A stretch of 48,148 nucleotides of DNA from an uncultured Oscillospiraceae bacterium. GTDB taxonomy: Bacteria > Bacillota > Clostridia > Oscillospirales > Oscillospiraceae. The position numbers and the translations under genes were made by a program. The notes under the pieces are model-generated. The model saw only the letters and a program-made list of their open reading frames with translations. It was not told where the DNA came from and searched no databases. Shown here in pieces: positions 6,641 to 44,518 of this stretch. The DNA lies in assembly GCA_950097245.1 (NCBI GenBank), contig CATNCS010000012.1, positions 1 through 48,148 on the forward strand. Reading direction: 5' to 3'. Position 1 is the stretch's first letter, and each line of letters opens with the position of its first letter.

Positions 6641-6707
6641 GCAGGGGCGGATATCATCCGCCCGCAAATAGAGGCTGGTTAAACGGGCGGATGATATCCG
6701 CCCCTAC
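6641..6707. repeat. Paired-hairpin element, copy 2
   Basis: Left frame GCAGGGGC and right frame GCCCCTAC enclose two hairpins with the same arm sequence (GGCGGAT and ATCCGCC around ATC or GAT). At 67 bases it is the shortest copy. It lies in the leader of the response regulator gene, downstream of a TATAAT box. Confidence 0.85.
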
Positions 6708-6723
6708 GGAATCATTATCTCTT

Positions 6724-11121: not shown

Positions 11122-11160
11122 GGGGGGCCGCCGGAGAAAGGGGAAAATCGTCCGCAAATG

Positions 11161-11328
11161 TTTACAAAAAGTTCATTGCTGTGTCATGATTTAGCCGTAT
11201 TCCTGTTTTATGATGGTACCGTAGTCAAGTGAATGAAATGTATCTCCTTTCTCTCTCCTTTACAACACACAGCAAAACGCCCCGGCCGTAAGGCCGGGGC
11301 GTTTTGCTGCCCGCCGAGGGGACCGGAG
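11161..11328 (+). ncRNA. Candidate small RNA unit 1 of a tandem pair
   Basis: The unit starts with TTTACAAAAAGTTCA, then TGTCATGA and TATGAT (11209-11214). This suggests a transcript from about 11221 to 11312. The RNA would contain a CU-rich stretch (ATCTCCTTTCTC and CTCTCCTTTAC) complementary to ribosome-binding sites. It ends in a perfect 17-pair hairpin with GUAA tetraloop (AGCAAAACGCCCCGGCC arm). It shares block order with unit 2, but the 5' part of the RNA differs. There is no good reading frame with a ribosome site. A bidirectional terminator with leftover promoter is the main alternative. Confidence 0.55.
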
Positions 11329-11496
11329 TTTACAAAAAGTTCACGGCAATGTCATGAAATCGCCGTATTTGTATTTTATCATAACATCGTAGCTAGGCTA
11401 CAACATGTATCTCCCATTTCTCCCTCTCCTTTTACAACACACACAGACAGAACGCCCTGGCCGTAAGGCCGGGGCGTTCTGTCTGACTGCCGAAGA
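11329..11496 (+). ncRNA. Candidate small RNA unit 2 of a tandem pair
   Basis: This is a second copy offset by 168 bases: TTTACAAAAAGTTCA, TGTCATGA, TATCAT (11377-11382) and a predicted transcript from about 11389 to 11482. The CU-rich stretch (ATCTCCCATTTCTC, CTCTCCTTTTAC) and ACAACACACA are kept. The hairpin (AGACAGAACGCCCTGGCC arm, GUAA loop) differs from unit 1 by a compensating A-U to G-C change and one C-G to U-G change, so pairing is conserved. The 5' portion (CTAGGCTACAAC) is unlike unit 1. Confidence 0.55.
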
Positions 11497-24364: not shown

Positions 24365-24949
24365 TTAGGAATACAGCCTGATAATCTCCTCCGCCACCGC
24401 CCGCTTGGGGACGCAGCGGTCCATCGACTGGCGGTTGATGTAGCGGTGGGCATCGGGCTCAGACATCTTCAGCTCGCTGATGAGCAGCCACTTGGCCCGG
24501 TTGACCAGGCGGATCTCCTCCATCTTCTCCTCAATGGGCTGCACCTTCTTCTCATAGCCCCGCAGCCGCTCCCGGGCGGCGGTCATCCAGTTCAGCCCCC
24601 GGAGGATGGCGTCTCTGGGGATGGGCCGGGGCAGGACAAACACCCCGTGCTCCGCCACCCTGGCCTGGACCTGGTCGTACAGCGCCGCCGCCGCGAAGAG
24701 CACGGTCACCCCGCCCCCCGTCCGGCAGCTGTCGATGGCAAAGCGGATGCCGGCGTCGTCGGGCAGCGGGGAGTTGACAAAGATAAAGTCGTAGTCCCGG
24801 AGGCCCCTGGCCCGTTCGGCGGCACCCACGCTGTTCACCGTAACAACGGGGGAGTAGACGGCCTCAGGCAGAAGGGGGACAAGGGAGCTCTGAAACCGCT
24901 CCGACGACGATACAATCAGCACGCTGTATACCCGCTCCTTCAGATTCAC
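24365..24949 (-). CDS. ANTAR-domain RNA-binding antiterminator with degenerate receiver
   Basis: ANTAR proteins bind hairpins with six-base loops in leader RNAs and prevent termination. The N-terminal part is receiver-like but has lost its phosphorylation site: the expected LLDxxxP is FVNSPLP, with Asn59 in place of Asp. The C-terminal three-helix ANTAR domain (about 135-190) has KMEEIRLVNRAKWLLI, MSEPDAHRYINRQSMD and AEEIIRLY. The gene follows a GlnA-like gene by 36 bases, the arrangement of NitR-type nitrogen regulators in clostridia. The leader hairpin at 26341-26391 in front of glnN is a possible target. Control would have to come from something other than Asp phosphorylation, for example binding to the GlnA-like protein (inference). 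Confidence 0.88.
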   Translation of the reverse strand: MNLKERVYSVLIVSSSERFQSSLVPLLPEAVYSPVVTVNSVGAAERARGLRDYDFIFVNSPLPDDAGIRFAIDSCRTGGGVTVLFAAAALYDQVQARVAEHGVFVLPRPIPRDAILRGLNWMTAARERLRGYEKKVQPIEEKMEEIRLVNRAKWLLISELKMSEPDAHRYINRQSMDRCVPKRAVAEEIIRLYS

Positions 24950-24985: not shown

Positions 24986-26197
24986 TCAGCGGCCGCAGTA
25001 TGCCGCCAGAATCGCCCCCGGAAGGGCCTTTCTGATAAACTCGCTGCCGGCCGCGGTGCTCCGGGCGGACTGCAGATTTCCGGGCAGCCGGCCAAACCGG
25101 GCCAGAGTCCGGGCGTCGGCCTGGTAGAGGTTGAGGTCAGCGGCGGGCGGCAGCTCCAGCCCCTCCTCAATTCCCCGCAGCCCCGCCCGGATCATCAGGG
25201 TAAAGGCCAGGTAGGGATTGGCGGCGGGGTCGGGGGAGCGCAGCTCCGCCCGGCGGTACTCCCCTACGGCGGCGGGGATGCGCACCAGCTGGGACCGGTT
25301 CTCCCGGGACCAGGAGATATACTGGGGGGCCTTATGGCCGCCGAACCGGGCGTAGGAGGCCTCCACCGGGTTGAGGAAGGCGGTCATCTCACCCACTTTG
25401 TCCAGCACGCCGGCCACCATCTCATACAGGTGGTCCCCGCCGTCCGCCCCCTGGACGGACATATTGATGTGGAAGCCGCTGCCCGGGGCGTCCGGCAGGG
25501 GCTTGGGGGAGAAGTCGGCGTACAGTCCGTTGCGCTGGGCGATAAATTTTACGATGGACTGAAAGGTCATCACGTTGTCCGCCGCCGCGAGGGGGTCGGA
25601 GTAGCGGAAGTCGATCTCGTTCTGGCCCGGCCCCTCCTCGTGGTGGGAGCACTCGGGGAAAATGCCCATCCGGGCCAGGGTAAGGCAGATCTCCCGGCGG
25701 ATGCTCTCCCCCCTGTCGTCGGGAGCGATGTCCATGTAGCCCGCCCGGTCGTGGGGGAGCCGGGTGGGGTTTCCCTCCTCGTCCAGCCGGAACAGGTAAA
25801 ACTCCTGCTCCGCGCCAAAGAGAAAGGAGTACCCTCTCTCCCGGGCCAGCTCCACCGTATTGCGCAGGAGGGCGCGGGCGTCGCACTCAAAGGGCCGCCC
25901 GTCCGGGTAGACCACCGAGCAGAACATGCGCACCACCTGGCCCTGCTCCGGCCGCCAGGGGAGGAGCATCAGGGTCTCCGGATCGGGGCGGAGCAGCAGG
26001 TCGGACCGGGCCTCGTCCCCGAAGCCGGCAATGGCGGAGGCGTCGAAGGCGATGCCGTACTCGAAGGCCCGGGGCAGCTGGTCAGGGACGATGGAGATAT
26101 TCTTCTGCCTGCCGAATACATCGCAGAAGGCCAGGTGGATGAAGGCCACTTCCTCCTCCTGGACGTACTGGATAACCTCGTCTTTGGAATACTTCAT
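24986..26197 (-). CDS. Short GlnA-like protein with altered ammonium-site residues
   Basis: It aligns with glutamine synthetase type I over its length but has 403 residues instead of about 440-470, lacking the C-terminal helices. Metal ligands are kept (GAEQEFYLF, GQNEIDF, GSGFHINMS, AELRSPDPAANPYLA). So are the Arg residues of RSQLVRIP and ELRSPD. At the ammonium site, the usual FDGSSIxGF is FDASAIAGF (Asp52 kept, Ala55 for Ser). The flap Glu of the usual YEAP is Lys289 in HKAP. It may therefore use another amine, like gamma-glutamyl-amine synthetases, or serve as a glutamine sensor for the ANTAR protein that follows. ATG 26197 follows AAAAGGAG; the frame open to 26449 is not supported. Confidence 0.85.
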   Translation of the reverse strand: MKYSKDEVIQYVQEEEVAFIHLAFCDVFGRQKNISIVPDQLPRAFEYGIAFDASAIAGFGDEARSDLLLRPDPETLMLLPWRPEQGQVVRMFCSVVYPDGRPFECDARALLRNTVELARERGYSFLFGAEQEFYLFRLDEEGNPTRLPHDRAGYMDIAPDDRGESIRREICLTLARMGIFPECSHHEEGPGQNEIDFRYSDPLAAADNVMTFQSIVKFIAQRNGLYADFSPKPLPDAPGSGFHINMSVQGADGGDHLYEMVAGVLDKVGEMTAFLNPVEASYARFGGHKAPQYISWSRENRSQLVRIPAAVGEYRRAELRSPDPAANPYLAFTLMIRAGLRGIEEGLELPPAADLNLYQADARTLARFGRLPGNLQSARSTAAGSEFIRKALPGAILAAYCGR

Positions 26198-26300: not shown

Positions 26301-26329
26301 TTGACAGCCTCCGGCCAAGAGCGTATAAT
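26301..26329 (+). promoter_or_regulatory. Strong promoter of glnN
   Basis: A consensus TTGACA (26301-26306) and TATAAT (26324-26329) are exactly 17 bases apart. Transcription should begin near 26336, only a few bases before the leader hairpin. Confidence 0.85.
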
Positions 26330-26340
26330 TCGCCCATAAA

Positions 26341-26391
26341 GGCAAAGACGTCTTTTAGGTATGATCCTGAAAGGCGCCTTTGCCTCTTTTT
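26341..26391 (+). terminator. Leader terminator of glnN, possible ANTAR target
   Basis: GGCAAAGACGTCTTT pairs with AAAGGCGCCTTTGCC (one A-C mismatch and one U-G pair). The stem extends through UAGG/CCUG to a six-base loop UAUGAU, and CTCTTTTT follows. Each arm contains a perfect 12-base palindrome (AAAGACGTCTTT and AAAGGCGCCTTT). It lies between the strong promoter and glnN, so read-through must be controlled. The six-base loop with G at position 4 fits ANTAR binding only in part, since position 1 is U rather than A. Confidence 0.75.
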
Positions 26392-26404
26392 GCGTGTTTC
26401 TATG

Positions 26405-26479
26405 GTAGGGGGCGGCCTCTGCGCCGCCCCGTCGCCGCAGGCCCCGCATATGCGGGGCGGCACGGAGGCCGCCCCCTGC
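26405..26479. repeat. Paired-hairpin element, copy 5
   Basis: GTAGGGGGC and GCCCCCTGC ends enclose outer arms GGGCGGCCTC and GAGGCCGCCC, with an inner GCCCCGCATATGCGGGGC palindrome. It lies in the glnN leader between the terminator and the ribosome site. Confidence 0.75.
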
Positions 26480-26511
26480 GGAAAGTTAAGACATTGAAAG
26501 GGTGAATAAAA

Positions 26512-28608
26512 ATGGCAGCAGTACCGGAGTATTTCGGAAGCTTAGTATTTGACGATCGGGCGATGAAGGCCAATCTGTCCACCGACGTATATCTGTCCAT
26601 GAAGAAGACCATCGACGAGGGGGCCAGGCTGGACCCCGGCGTGGCCAATGCGGTGGCCTCCGCCATGAAGGACTGGGCGGTGGCCCTGGGCGCCACCCAC
26701 TTCACCCACTGGTTCCAGCCCCTCACCGGCGTCACCGCCGAGAAGCACGACGGCTTCATCTCCCCCGCCGCCAACGGCCGGGTGATTATGGAGTTCTCCG
26801 GCAAGGAGCTGATTCAGGGGGAGCCCGACGCCTCCTCCTTCCCCTCCGGGGGGCTGCGGGCCACCTTCGAGGCCCGGGGCTATACCGCCTGGGACCCCAC
26901 CTCCTACGCCTTTATCAAGGACAAAACCCTGTGCATCCCCACCGCCTTCTGCGGCTACAACGGGGAGGCCCTGGACAAGAAGACCCCCCTGCTGCGCTCC
27001 ATGGCCGCCCTGAACAAGCAGGCCCTGCGCATCCTGCGCCTCTTCGGCAACGACACGGTGAAGCACGTGAACACCGCCGTGGGCCCGGAGCAGGAGTACT
27101 TCCTGGTGGACGCCAAAATGTGGGAGCAGCGCCGGGACCTGCGCTTTACCGGCCGCACCCTCTTCGGCGCCAAGCCCCCCAAGGGCCAGGAGATGGACGA
27201 CCACTACTTCGGCACCATCAAGCCCCGGGTGGCCGCCTACATGTCTGACCTGAACGACGAGCTGTGGAAGCTGGGCATCCTGGCCAAGACCCAGCACAAC
27301 GAGGTGGCCCCCGCCCAGCACGAGCTGGCCCCCATCTACACCACCACCAACATCTCCACCGACCACAACCAGCTGACCATGGAGATCATGCAGAAGGTGG
27401 CCGCCCGCCACGGGCTGGTCTGTCTGCTCCATGAGAAGCCCTTCGTGGGGGTGAACGGCTCTGGCAAGCACAACAACTGGTCCATCTCCACCGACACCGG
27501 CGTCAACCTTCTCTCCCCCGGCGACACCCCCTATGAGAACGCCCAGTTTTTGCTGTTCCTGTGCGCCGTCATCAAGGCGGTGGACGACTACCAGGACCTG
27601 CTGCGCATCTCGGTGGCCACCGCCGGCAACGACCACCGCCTGGGGGCCAACGAGGCACCTCCCGCCGTGGTGTCCATGTTCCTGGGGGATGAGCTGGCCG
27701 CCATTCTGGGCTGCATCGAGCACGACGCCCCCTACACCGGCATCGACACCGGCAAGGTGAAGCTGGGGGTGGATGTGCTGCCCAGGTTCCGCCGGGACAC
27801 CACCGACCGCAACCGCACCTCCCCCTTCGCCTTCACCGGCAACAAGTTTGAGTTCCGCATGGTGGGCTCCGCCGACTCCATCGCCTGCGCCAACATCATG
27901 ATTAACACCGCCGTGGCCGAGAGCCTGCGGGTCTACGCAGACCGGCTGGAGGGGACGGAGGACTTTGAGGCCACCCTCCAGGACATGATCCGCAAGACCA
28001 TCCAGGACCACAAGCGGATTATCTTCAACGGCAACGGCTACGACGACGCCTGGATCCGGGAGGCCACTGAGCAGCGGGGCCTGCTCAACTACCGCACCAC
28101 CCCCGACTGCGTGCCCCACCTGCTGGACGAGAAGAACGTGGCCCTGCTCACCGGCCACAAGGTGTTCACCAGGGCGGAGCTGGAGTCCCGGTATGAGGTC
28201 ACCCTGGAGAACTACTGCAAGACCATCATCATCGAGGCCAACACCATGGTGGACATGGCCAGGACCGAGATCATCCCCGCCGTCCAGGCCTTTACCTGCG
28301 ACACCGCCAAAACCGCCGCCGCCAAGAAGGAGCTGGTCCCCGGCTGCCCCTGCGCCTATGAGACGGAGCTGGTGAAAAAGCTGTCCTCCCTCACCGACCA
28401 GATGGCCGCCAAGACGGCGGAGCTGGAGCAGGCCGTGCTGGCCCTGGCCGGCGCCGGCGATATCAGGAGGGAGTCCGAGTCCATCCGGGACATTGTGCTG
28501 CCCAAGATGGGCGAGCTGCGCCTGGCCTGCGACGAGGCCGAGACCCTCACCGCCAGGAAGTACTGGCCCTTCCCCACCTACGGCGACCTGCTGTTCGGGG
28601 TGCGGTAA
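26512..28608 (+). CDS. glnN: Glutamine synthetase, class III
   Basis: This large glutamine synthetase of 698 residues makes glutamine from glutamate, ammonia and ATP, and is probably the main ammonium-assimilating enzyme here. Class III features are visible: an N-terminal part with [16 protein letters not shown], the glutamate and metal sites [10 protein letters not shown] and [13 protein letters not shown], the nucleotide loop [26 protein letters not shown], and a C-terminal helical extension (about 600-680) absent from class I enzymes. It starts at ATG 26512 after GAAAGGG. Upstream lie a consensus promoter, a leader terminator and a repeat. The three downstream genes on the same strand all use glutamine. 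Confidence 0.96.
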
Positions 28609-28614
28609 CTGCCT

Positions 28615-28690
28615 GTAGGGGCGGGCATCACCCGCCCGTCCCTACCGGAATTTTGGCAATATTATGCGGGCGGATGATATCCGCCCCTAC
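28615..28690. repeat. Paired-hairpin element, copy 6
   Basis: GTAGGGGC and GCCCCTAC ends enclose two hairpins with different arms: GGCGGG/CCCGCC around CATCA, and GGCGGAT/ATCCGCC. It fills the gap between glnN and asnB. Confidence 0.87.
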
Positions 28691-28722
28691 AAAATTATTC
28701 CGCCAAAATGGAGGAAACAATT

Positions 28723-30303
28723 ATGTGTTCAATTATTGGATATTGCGGCCCTGTGACTGACCTGGACGCCTTTCAGGCGGGCTTTCAGCGTACCGTCAGC
28801 CGGGGCCCCGACGACAGCCGGGTGGTAAAGGCGGGGGAGGGCCTGCTGGGGTTCCACCGCCTGGCCATCATGGGCCTCACCCCCGAGGGGATGCAGCCCT
28901 TCGGGCTGGAGGACAGCTACGCCGTGTGCAACGGCGAAATCTACGGCTTTGAGAAGCTGAAGGGGGAGCTGACAGGGAAGGGCTACACCTTCCAGAGCGG
29001 CTCCGACTGCGAGATTCTGCTCCCCCTGTACCGGGAGTACGGGGTAGACATGTTCGCCATGCTGGACGCGGAGTTCGCCTGCATCCTCTACGACGGCCAA
29101 ACCGGCGAATTCATCGCCGCCCGGGACCCCATCGGCATCCGGCCCCTCTACTACGGCCGCGACAGCCGGGGGACAATTATCTTCGCCAGTGAGCCCAAGA
29201 ACCTGCTGGGGCTGACAGACAAAATTATGCCCTTCCCCCCGGGGCACTACTACAAGGACGGCAAATTTGTCTGCTATCACGATATTGCAAAAACCACACA
29301 TTTCTGCTATGATGAGTTGGAAATTCTTTGCAGAAACATCCGGGAGAAGCTGACGGCGGCTGTGGACAAGCGGCTGGTGGCCGACGCCAAGGTGGGCTTT
29401 CTCCTGTCCGGCGGGCTGGACTCCTCTCTGGTATGCGCCATCGCCGCCAAGAGGAGCAAGACCCCCATCAGGACCTTCGCCATTGGCATGGATACCGACG
29501 CCATCGACCTGAAATACGCCAGGCAAGTGGCCAACTACATCGGCAGCGACCACCGGGAGATCATCATCACCAAAGAGGATGTGCTGTCCAGCCTGGAGAC
29601 GGTGGTGGAGCTGCTGGGCACCTACGACATCACCACCATCCGGGCCAGCATGGGGATGTACCTCATCTGCAAGGCCATCCATGAGCAGACAGACGTGCGG
29701 GTCCTCCTCACCGGGGAGATTTCCGACGAGCTCTTCGGCTACAAATACACCGATTTCGCCCCCTCCGCCGCCGCGTTCCAGGAGGAGTCGGCCAAGCGGG
29801 TGCGGGAGCTGCACATGTACGACGTGCTCCGGGCGGACCGGTGCATCTCGGTGAACTCCCTGGAGGCCCGGGTGCCCTTCGGCGACCTGGACTTTGTGGA
29901 GTACGTCATGTCCATCGCCCCGGAAAAGAAGCTCAACACCTACCACAAGGGCAAGTACCTGCTGAGAAAGGCCTTTGAGGGGGACTGGCTCCCCGAGTCC
30001 ATCCTGTGGCGGGAGAAGGCGGCCTTCTCCGACGCGGTGGGCCACTCCCTGGTGGACGACCTGAAGGAGTACGCCGAGGCCCAATATACCGACGGGGAAT
30101 TTGAGGCCCGGCGGCAGAAGTACGGCCACGCCCGGCCCTTCACCAAGGAGTCGCTGCTCTACCGGGAGATTTTTGAGAAGTACTACCCCGGCCAGAGCGA
30201 TATGGTTGTTGACTTCTGGATGCCCAACAGGTCCTGGGAGGGCTGCAACGTAGACGACCCCTCCGCCCGGGTGCTGGCCAACTACGGGGAGAGCGGGGTG
30301 TGA
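28723..30303 (+). CDS. asnB: Asparagine synthetase, glutamine-hydrolysing
   Basis: AsnB makes asparagine from aspartate, ATP and glutamine. The N-terminal class II amidotransferase domain begins MCSIIGYCG, so Cys2 becomes the catalytic N-terminal nucleophile. This fixes the start at ATG 28723, which has GGAGG upstream; an ATG-like start five codons earlier would bury that Cys. The synthetase domain has the PP-loop FLLSGGLDSSLVCAI and TGEISDELFGYKY. The length of 526 residues is normal. It lies between glnN and guaA on the same strand, flanked on both sides by paired-hairpin elements. Confidence 0.95.
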   Translation: MCSIIGYCGPVTDLDAFQAGFQRTVSRGPDDSRVVKAGEGLLGFHRLAIMGLTPEGMQPFGLEDSYAVCNGEIYGFEKLKGELTGKGYTFQSGSDCEILLPLYREYGVDMFAMLDAEFACILYDGQTGEFIAARDPIGIRPLYYGRDSRGTIIFASEPKNLLGLTDKIMPFPPGHYYKDGKFVCYHDIAKTTHFCYDELEILCRNIREKLTAAVDKRLVADAKVGFLLSGGLDSSLVCAIAAKRSKTPIRTFAIGMDTDAIDLKYARQVANYIGSDHREIIITKEDVLSSLETVVELLGTYDITTIRASMGMYLICKAIHEQTDVRVLLTGEISDELFGYKYTDFAPSAAAFQEESAKRVRELHMYDVLRADRCISVNSLEARVPFGDLDFVEYVMSIAPEKKLNTYHKGKYLLRKAFEGDWLPESILWREKAAFSDAVGHSLVDDLKEYAEAQYTDGEFEARRQKYGHARPFTKESLLYREIFEKYYPGQSDMVVDFWMPNRSWEGCNVDDPSARVLANYGESGV

Positions 30304-30345: not shown

Positions 30346-30420
30346 GTAAGGGCGGGTATTACCCGCCCGTTTCCAACGAAATGCCGGCGCTACCTGCGGG
30401 CGGATGATGTCCGCCCCTAC
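30346..30420. repeat. Paired-hairpin element, copy 7
   Basis: GTAAGGGC and GCCCCTAC ends enclose GGCGGGTA/TACCCGCC and GGCGGAT/GTCCGCC hairpins. It lies between asnB and guaA. Confidence 0.87.
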
Positions 30421-30451
30421 AAATGATAAATGGAACAGACGGAGGGACAGC

Positions 30452-39902: not shown

Positions 39903-39980
39903 GCAGGGGCGGGTATTACCCGCCCGTCTTTCCCGGCAAGGCCGGCGGATACCATGCGGGCGGATGATATCCGCCCCTAC
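39903..39980. repeat. Paired-hairpin element, copy 8
   Basis: GCAGGGGC and GCCCCTAC ends enclose GGCGGGTA/TACCCGCC and GGCGGAT/ATCCGCC hairpins. Its two arm types are the same as in copy 7. It begins one base after the regulator gene's stop on the minus strand. Confidence 0.87.
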
Positions 39981-39981
39981 A

Positions 39982-41589
39982 TTAATTTTTCAGCCCCGAC
40001 CGGAATTTGGAGGGGGACAGCCCGAACTGTTTTTTGAACACATAGCTGAAATAATTGGGGTCGATATAACCTGTCCGCTCGGCGATGCGGTAGGTCTTCT
40101 CGTCGGTGTCCCGGAGCAGCCGTACCGCCTCCTCCATGCGCACCTGGGTGACGTAGGCGGTGAAGCTCAGCCCCACCTCCCGCTTGAACAGGGTGGAGAA
40201 GTAGGTGGGGGACAGGTGGATGTGGGAGCACAGGGACTCCACGCTCAGCCCCTCGTCGCTGTAGTGGCCGGCGATGTAGTCCTTGGCCTGCTCCACCAGC
40301 TTCCAGGCGGAGTCGCTGCGCTGGCGGCCCAGCAGCTCGTGGAGCTTCAGGCACCGCTCCCCCAGCCACCGGCCCAGCTCCTCCAGGCTGGAGAAGTCGG
40401 AGATGGACACCGAACCGGTAAAGTTGGCCCCGAAGACCGCCTCCACCGCCACCCCGCCGGAGCGGGTGAGGCGGATCAGGCAGGTGACCAGCTCCAGCAG
40501 AAACAGGTGGCACTTGGACAGGGACAGCCCCGCCTGCTTCAGCCGGTCCATCAGCCCCCGGACCACCTGCTCCACCTGCTCCGGGGTGCCCAGCTTGATG
40601 GCGGCGGACAGCTGGCGCTGGTCCTCCTCCTCAAAGGAGAGCTCCGCGGCGGACTGGGGCTCCAGGTCGCCGATGTAGATGACCCGGCCGCCTCCCATCA
40701 GGGCCCGGTAGTCCAGGGCGGAGCGGGCCCCCTCCACGCTGCGGTGGAGCTCCTCCGGCCCCTGGCAGGGCAGGCCCACCCCCGCAGTGAGGGGGATGCC
40801 CAGATAGCTCTGGGACAGCAGGCTGAGCCGCTCCAGCTCCTCCAGCAGGGGGTAGAGCCGGTCCGGCCCGGACAGCTGGACCAGCAGAGCCGCCGTGTCC
40901 CCGTAGAGAATCACCCGGGCGGAGCAGCCCTCCAGGGCAAAGTGCTCCTCCAGAAAGGACTGCGCCGACAGCAGCACCAGCTCATCCCGCTGGCCGTCCT
41001 CCCCGTCCCCGGGCAGGTCCGCATGGACCAGAGCGGCCGCCCACAGCCCCGGCGGCAGCTCAATCTCATACCGGGCCGCCCGGTCCTGCACCTGGTCGGG
41101 GCGGAGCTGGCCGCTGAGCAGGCGGGTGTAAAACAGCTCCCGCAGTATGGGCAGGCTCTCCTCATACCGGCGGCGGAGGGTCTCCATGTCCCGGCGCTCC
41201 AGGCGCTGGCTGTCCAGCTGACGGCGCAGCTTGGTCAGCACCTCAGACAGCTCCACGGCGTTGATGGGCTTGAGGATATACTCCGACACCCCCATCCCCA
41301 CCGCCTGCCGGGCATACTCAAAATCGTCAAAGCCGGAGAAAACCACCAGCTTGGCCCCGGGCAGGGACTGGCGCAGCCGGCGGCACAGCTCCAGTCCGTC
41401 CATAAAGGGCATCTTGATATCGGTGAGCACCACGTCGGGGCGGAGCTGCTCCGCCAGCTCCAGGGCCTCCTCGCCGTTGGCCGCCTCCCCCACCAGGGAA
41501 AAGCCCAGAGCCGTCCAGTCGATCTTGCGGCTGATGCCGGTGCGGATCTCCTCCTCGTCGTCCGCCAGCAGCACACGGTATTCCTCCAT
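39982..41589 (-). CDS. YesN-type response regulator with AraC DNA-binding domain
   Basis: This 535-residue regulator has a receiver (ADDEEEIRTG, Asp in DVVLTDIKMPFMDG, Lys in EYILKPINAVEL), a long middle region (about 150-420), and a C-terminal AraC-type two-helix-turn-helix domain (HIHLSPTYFSTLFKREVG, TGYIDPNYFSYVFKKQFG). It is the expected partner of the LytS/YesM kinase at 36951. Lying head to tail behind the mgl operon and before two sugar-binding sensors, it probably activates galactose uptake genes. Its promoter overlaps the mgl terminator. Confidence 0.94.
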   Translation of the reverse strand: MEEYRVLLADDEEEIRTGISRKIDWTALGFSLVGEAANGEEALELAEQLRPDVVLTDIKMPFMDGLELCRRLRQSLPGAKLVVFSGFDDFEYARQAVGMGVSEYILKPINAVELSEVLTKLRRQLDSQRLERRDMETLRRRYEESLPILRELFYTRLLSGQLRPDQVQDRAARYEIELPPGLWAAALVHADLPGDGEDGQRDELVLLSAQSFLEEHFALEGCSARVILYGDTAALLVQLSGPDRLYPLLEELERLSLLSQSYLGIPLTAGVGLPCQGPEELHRSVEGARSALDYRALMGGGRVIYIGDLEPQSAAELSFEEEDQRQLSAAIKLGTPEQVEQVVRGLMDRLKQAGLSLSKCHLFLLELVTCLIRLTRSGGVAVEAVFGANFTGSVSISDFSSLEELGRWLGERCLKLHELLGRQRSDSAWKLVEQAKDYIAGHYSDEGLSVESLCSHIHLSPTYFSTLFKREVGLSFTAYVTQVRMEEAVRLLRDTDEKTYRIAERTGYIDPNYFSYVFKKQFGLSPSKFRSGLKN

Positions 41590-44401: not shown

Positions 44402-44476
44402 GTAGGGGCGCACAGTGTGCGCCCGCAAGCTCGTGGCCTGACGGCCGAACAGGCGGGCGGACAATGTCCGCCCCTA
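44402..44476. repeat. Paired-hairpin element, copy 9
   Basis: GTAGGGGC and GCCCCTAC ends enclose GCGCACA/TGTGCGC and GGCGGACA/TGTCCGCC hairpins, one arm type seen in copy 3 and the other close to copies 2, 6 and 8. It lies between mglB and mglA. Confidence 0.87.
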
Positions 44477-44479
44477 CTG

Positions 44480-44518
44480 AGAAAGGGTGCGTGCGCACCT
44501 GCGCACGCACCCTTTTCC
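44480..44518 (-). terminator. Attenuator hairpin after mglB
   Basis: AAAGGGTGCGTGCGC pairs with GCGCACGCACCCTTT around four bases; on the minus strand CTTTCTC follows. A partial stop here would make much mglB mRNA and less mglA-mglC mRNA, as binding proteins usually require. Confidence 0.65.

Follow-up and report, generated by a model that had tools for sequence, protein, structure and literature searches.

In the AmiC-AmiR system of Pseudomonas aeruginosa, the ANTAR protein AmiR is not known to be phosphorylated and is set free by its sensor. Published ANTAR targets are six-base RNA loops with A at position 1 and G at position 4 (A1 and G4; PMC3369931, PMC8164766, PMC8934654), with a linker of 2-25 nt between two such loops, a spacing that earlier searches demanded (PMC8164766). 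Substrates of this kind have been predicted before ammonium transporter and glutamate/glutamine synthase genes in Desulfotomaculum and others (PMC3369931). The structure of EutV with its RNA (Walshe 2022) gave one hexaloop as the minimal ANTAR site, with single hexaloops binding EutV as well as the pair, and noted that single-hexaloop roles need more bioinformatics and experiments (PMC8934654). Lengthening the linker between EutV's two hexaloops abolishes antitermination (PMC8934654), so one hexaloop may not suffice. In Bacilli, glutamine-bound type I glutamine synthetase (GS-I) acts as the nitrogen sensor for the regulators GlnR and TnrA (PMC9249791).

We analysed a 48,148-nt stretch of contig CATNCS010000012.1 (assembly GCA_950097245.1, an uncultured Oscillospiraceae bacterium), hereafter the window, in which glnN, encoding type III glutamine synthetase (GS III), lies downstream of a consensus promoter (Table 1). 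The ANTAR gene that the first-pass annotation had placed about 1.4 kb from the glnN leader on the opposite strand was confirmed (59 bits to PF03861 against a curated cut-off of 27.3) and was the sole ANTAR gene found in the window's genome. Between it and glnN sits a GS-I-like gene, of which that annotation made no mention; both genes are divergent from glnN. The asnB-like gene downstream probably shares the glnN transcription unit. A GC-rich inverted repeat that lies past the terminator and ahead of glnN is missing or different in relatives (L006, L009 and L010 do not share it) and is probably an unrelated intergenic element. Elsewhere in the window, an intergenic inverted repeat of the GCGGGCGGATGATATCCGCCC type occurs five times (6679-6716, 28662-28699, 30392-30429, 39952-39989 and 44449-44486), sometimes adjoining a second repeat family (28610, 30341, 39898). 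The interval 11160-11481 contains a repeat of 65 nt and a hairpin of 34 nt (CAAAACGCCCCGGCCGTAAGGCCGGGGCGTTTTG), each present twice with about 170 nt between copies.

Table 1. Features of the glnN locus, with window coordinates
Feature	Coordinates	Strand	Basis or detail
ANTAR-domain protein with pseudo-receiver domain	24365..24949	-	PF03861, E 4e-16
GS-I-like paralogue, 403 aa, candidate sensor	24986..26197	-	
Sigma-70 promoter, consensus TTGACA-17-TATAAT	26301..26329	+	Read directly; -35 TTGACA 26301-26306, -10 TATAAT 26324-26329, spacer 17 nt
Candidate antiterminator, single ANTAR-type hexaloop, 18-nt AAAGGCAAAGACGUCUUU	26338..26355	+	Covariation, A1/G4; stem AAAGGC/GUCUUU, loop AAAGAC 26344-26349
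Intrinsic terminator	26340..26391	+	Stem 26340-26359/26366-26385, loop 26360-26365, U-tract 26387-26391
GC-rich inverted repeat, terminator-to-glnN-start interval	26406..26478	+	Read directly
glnN, GS III, 698 aa, regulated gene	26512..28608	+	Pfam GSIII_N, E 1e-78
asnB-like asparagine synthase	28708..30303	+	Pfam

Terminator and hexaloop hairpin of the glnN leader

As the first-pass annotation had described, the promoter runs into a hairpin with a UAUGAU loop and a U-tract. In this terminator hairpin (26340-26385), an A.C mismatch separates helices of 8 bp and 11 bp, and CUUUUU follows the stem-loop; its free energy was -30.2 kcal/mol (z -5.9), and none of 200 dinucleotide shuffles was equally stable. 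The glnN leaders of relatives, collected by protein homology, carried a terminator directly 3' of the promoter, with a near-constant 5' arm (GRCAAAGRYGUC), a freely variable upper stem and loop, and short forms without the upper stem. Covariation supported the pairing in 23 members (93% of cells paired, 13 double-change pairs, 0/500 shuffles). Among 91 members the apical loop was 3-11 nt long, with six bases in 24 and both A1 and G4 in three of those 24; UAUGAU was rejected as the ANTAR loop, the terminator tip not being conserved across this set. The two perfect 12-base palindromes noted earlier are present in the window (AAAGACGTCTTT, 26344-26355; AAAGGCGCCTTT, 26370-26381). The suggestion that their short tetraloop hairpins compete with the long hairpin was not upheld: the 5' one had a free energy of +0.4, its rate of pairing (61% of cells) did not exceed that of shuffles, and it covaried less than they did.

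Folded on itself, the terminator 5' arm forms a hexaloop hairpin (-3.5 kcal/mol alone) that is mutually exclusive with the terminator and whose loop, AAAGAC, bears A1 and G4, making needless the variant recognition that had been considered for an A1 missing from UAUGAU. Its general form is GRC[AANGRY]GUC with outer A-U pairs. The stem covaried separately from the terminator, with 99% of cells paired in 23 sequences; over 66 distinct members, double changes fell in 39 cells, compared with 17 for shuffles (0/500). Loop position 4 was G in 91 of 91 members, position 1 was A in 87 and G in four, position 2 was A in 86 and position 3 could be any base, a sequence pattern that matches the published ANTAR signature. 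In the terminator form, loop positions 3 and 4 occupy neighbouring stem pairs, and since pair 3 varies with compensation, pairing alone fails to explain G4.

An RNA model trained on similar sequences may bias the loop pattern, and the analysis was therefore repeated without the model, anchored on the promoters of 43 glnN genes near this ANTAR gene in named genomes; of the hexaloop hairpins within 32 nt after each promoter, the longest was taken. A stem of at least 4 bp was found in 37 of these 43 leaders, with G4 in 37/37 and A1 in 35/37, and in 30/40 the longest stem came with a six-base loop. The first-pass annotation had regarded absence of the hairpin where ANTAR and glnN co-occur as evidence against its proposal; that objection fails, the hexaloop hairpin being present in those 37. 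Among first-copy leaders, 71 of 76 had a six-base loop on a stem of at least 3 bp. An exact-pattern search (up to three mismatches, 150 family genomes) matched the window alone, because the loop and upper stem diverge, and relatives were found with a covariance model. One model-aligned set (A2) was dropped, as it contained antisense matches of the near-palindromic hairpin, and ordinary gene-end terminators (14 loci and similar matches) were excluded from the members.

These leaders appear to hold one hexaloop rather than two. In 66 of the 75 members whose promoter scored 8.5/13 or more, a near-consensus -10 ended 6-12 nt before the hairpin, which puts the predicted transcript start at about the first hairpin base and leaves no room for a first hexaloop. 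No second A1/G4 hexaloop (at least 4 bp, C-G closed) was found upstream in the 76 leaders searched, where 1.1 would be expected by chance. The classical dual-hexaloop definition (a second hexaloop, P1, and a short linker) thus does not describe these leaders, making the candidate ANTAR target a variant of the classical family, and earlier searches would miss it because they required two loops 2-25 nt apart. Tandem leaders, seen before several glnN and amt genes, comprised two to three full hexaloop-terminator units before one gene (L012, L015, L072, L090-L092, L107-L109 and others); such units could act as sequential gates.

In a sister group of glnN leaders (L027, L028, L030, L032 and L033), promoter and hexaloop are separated by about 45 nt. 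Two of these leaders carried a further hexaloop hairpin upstream whose loop begins with A but has its G at position 3 (AUGUCC, ACGAUA); it may represent a P1 that is degenerate or of another kind.

Regulon, ANTAR protein and glutamine synthetase-like partner

The search before nitrogen genes of related genomes, as proposed in the first-pass annotation, returned the conserved hexaloop-terminator with a variable tip in place of UAUGAU. Genes outside the window were named from their translations or from similarity to window proteins (glnN, GS and ANTAR). glnN followed the element in most cases, and the element was also found before amt (n = 11), purF (n = 3, plus a weak match, L083, at E 7e-4 in the genome to which the window belongs) and gltB-type amidotransferase genes (n = 3), with single cases of asnB (with its own hexaloop leader in relative G150), carA, pyrG, gdhA and glnA. 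Going by their annotation, most of these genes make, move or use glutamine, glutamate or ammonium. Hexaloop-like leaders also preceded genes for a PEP/pyruvate-binding-type and a carbon-nitrogen hydrolase-like protein (L117, L137), whose regulon membership is uncertain.

Among 40 relatives, each ANTAR-bearing genome had exactly one ANTAR gene, and the element (E<=1e-4) occurred in 24 of 30 ANTAR-bearing against 0 of 10 ANTAR-free genomes. Of the 297 genomes examined at order level, 109 carried the element, and 99 of these encoded ANTAR (Fisher p 1.4e-12 without the seed genomes, uncorrected for phylogeny). In 147 non-seed family genomes, the element and close homologues of the ANTAR protein encoded in the window were also associated (p 6e-6 at E<=1e-5, likewise uncorrected). 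The remaining 10 of the 109, each at least 90% complete, had no ANTAR match, and about half of the ANTAR-bearing genomes had no element at the cut-off used. Many elements lay no more than about 25 kb from the ANTAR gene. In one genome (G082), an amt leader with hexaloop AAGGGC (L096, C10:69539-69593) lay about 6 kb from an ANTAR gene (C10:75761) that is weakly similar and of another subtype.

The window ANTAR protein combines a receiver-like domain, a long helix and ANTAR helices, and the best full-length match of its AlphaFold model was RNA-bound EutV (TM 0.71), with Rv1626 and AmiR also matched. The receiver phospho-acceptor Asp is replaced by Asn in 22 of 24 aligned homologues and by His or Gln in the other two, making a kinase signal unlikely and a protein partner likely. 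Mapping of the EutV RNA-contact residues (PMC8934654) aligned K143, K147, K149, E160 and M172 with window residues R147, R151, K153, E164 and M176, whilst Y164 is His here, as in AmiR, N173 is Asp and R175 is Cys. As far as alignment and model can tell, the ANTAR fold and most RNA-contact residues are kept.

The GS-like gene was found directly upstream of ANTAR on the same strand in 24/24 first loci and 76/76 named loci with room, the named ones including records of Lawsonibacter, Agathobaculum desmolans, Mediterraneibacter agrestimuris and Eubacterium sp. 14-2. Its flap reads GH-KAP in place of GYEAP, the catalytic Glu having become Lys next to a one-residue deletion, and the C-terminal segment is missing. 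This position, which corresponds to Glu304 of Bacillus subtilis and Glu327 of Salmonella, was Lys in 23 and Arg in one of the 24 first loci, and Lys in 73/73 parsed named loci; Glu304 is catalytic and also contacts feedback glutamine (PMC9249791). The metal-binding Glu pairs and active-site His are kept (motifs GxExEF, HHE..QxEIDF and GxGxH). The other GS-I of the window's genome (L250) is ordinary, with the flap Glu and a full C-terminus. From its sequence, the paralogue is apparently catalytically compromised. In the sister group (G039, G165, G155), the GS-I found next to ANTAR or in its vicinity is intact and the glnN leaders start about 45 nt upstream of the hexaloop, suggesting that the GS-ANTAR pairing preceded the loss of catalysis. 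The analogies with AmiC-AmiR and GS-GlnR/TnrA, together with gene order and residue loss, make the GS-like protein a likely nitrogen sensor, though it may be an enzyme with a different amine substrate. Our search of the open-licence literature found no paper describing such a leader or GS-like-ANTAR pair.

Proposed mechanism and rival explanations

On sequence-derived features, namely the exclusive hairpins and their separate covariation, A1/G4, the promoter position, the lack of a first hexaloop, the regulon, the ANTAR co-occurrence and the GS-like-ANTAR gene pair with its Glu-to-Lys change, we put at about 0.77 the probability that the leader is a protein-controlled transcription attenuator, in which an ANTAR protein with a GS-I-paralogue partner sets a single hexaloop against the terminator. 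Nitrogen-linked ANTAR antitermination of GS III, as first proposed, is thus the best supported reading, with its site moved from the terminator loop to AAAGAC in the 5' arm. Counting against it are the linker effect seen with EutV, the Asp and Cys at two EutV contact positions, the element-positive genomes with no ANTAR match and the ANTAR-bearing genomes with no element.

Prefix folds, which give equilibrium structures of the prefixes and not kinetics, had the hexaloop in place by 20 nt (about -4.0) and unaltered as far as 32 nt, with the terminator displacing it between 38 and 50 nt and reaching -28.7 at 52 nt. Such a weak early hairpin suggests a window for protein capture. We infer the ANTAR-RNA binding, the direction of control, the glutamine signal and the contact between the GS-like and ANTAR proteins as follows. 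From the strong promoter, polymerase would start a few bases before the single hexaloop hairpin, which, weak as it is, would fold first, when about 20 nt have been made. Unheld by protein, it would be invaded by the next 30 nt to form the terminator, and transcription would stop at about 50 nt. Under nitrogen (glutamine) shortage, the neighbouring ANTAR protein would bind the A1/G4 hexaloop and block the terminator, letting polymerase read into glnN and the other nitrogen genes. The GS-like partner would be the glutamine or nitrogen sensor that sets or releases the ANTAR protein, as AmiC does for AmiR. The full proposal, that a GS pseudoenzyme senses glutamine and gates an ANTAR protein needing just one 5'-end hexaloop, in an attenuator of about 50 nt found across gut Clostridia, seems to us evenly balanced between right and wrong.

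A dual-site ANTAR attenuator, with a second hexaloop supplied by the terminator tip UAUGAU or the next tandem copy, would make this an ordinary dual-hexaloop system, and in a 34-nt prefix of the window leader AAAGAC and UAUGAU do fold as hexaloops side by side, with G4 in UAUGAU as well. Yet the tip combined A1 and G4 in 3/91 members amid its variation in length, the short-form leaders have no apical stem to offer, and the tandem copies, for all that two or three of them precede several glnN and amt genes, lie roughly 70-95 nt apart with their own terminators, beyond the known 2-25 nt linker (PMC8164766); with an upstream hexaloop in 0/76 leaders as well, we consider a dual site unlikely.

If the leader were unregulated, or a tiny glutamine or ammonium riboswitch answering to ligand alone, the approximately ten element-bearing genomes with no detected ANTAR gene would need no special account, and target genes that mostly make or use glutamine would be expected; an 18-nt hairpin is, however, very small for a ligand pocket, A1/G4 is the exact ANTAR signature, co-occurrence and frequent co-location with one ANTAR gene are strong, and Rfam at gathering score returned zero matches within the window, all of which makes this highly improbable. 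Least probable of all is a DNA operator, an inverted repeat at +1 binding a dimeric repressor, with the terminator incidental. A near-palindrome over the start site, at a fixed distance from the -10, is what such an operator would look like, but G-U, a mismatch in DNA, is the commonest pair at one hexaloop stem position (29/66), which argues for an RNA hairpin; moreover, invariant bases fall in the spacer and not in the arms alone, second copies lie far from any promoter, and a covarying terminator with a U-tract follows.

Relation to known systems

The attenuator reading would provide a large natural set of single-hexaloop attenuators before nitrogen assimilation genes in gut Clostridia, bearing on the question of how little RNA an ANTAR switch needs. 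It would also provide a candidate for clostridial nitrogen sensing, in the shape of a GS paralogue that lacks the catalytic flap Glu and shares its locus with the genome's one ANTAR gene. Both the element and this partner are short and lend themselves to direct tests.

Like the eut, nas and ami targets of EutV, NasR and AmiR, the leaders have an A1/G4 hexaloop on a short stem with a C-G closing pair, overlapping and excluding the terminator 5' arm, with nitrogen-related genes downstream; unlike them, they carry one hexaloop in place of two with a short linker, start at about +1 and often occur as tandem copies. Nitrogen-assimilation ANTAR regulons are also shared with the substrates predicted in PMC3369931, although the dual-hairpin search model used there excluded single-hexaloop leaders by design. 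AmiC-AmiR (PDB 1qo0) offers a fold match and the same arrangement of a receiver-like ANTAR protein and a neighbouring ligand-sensing protein, whereas the partner here is a GS-I paralogue rather than a periplasmic-binding-protein homologue, and the pair would act on several unlinked nitrogen operons. Compared with GS-GlnR/TnrA, the putative regulator is an RNA-binding ANTAR protein and not MerR-type, and its GS partner has neither the Glu304 equivalent nor the C-terminal segment.
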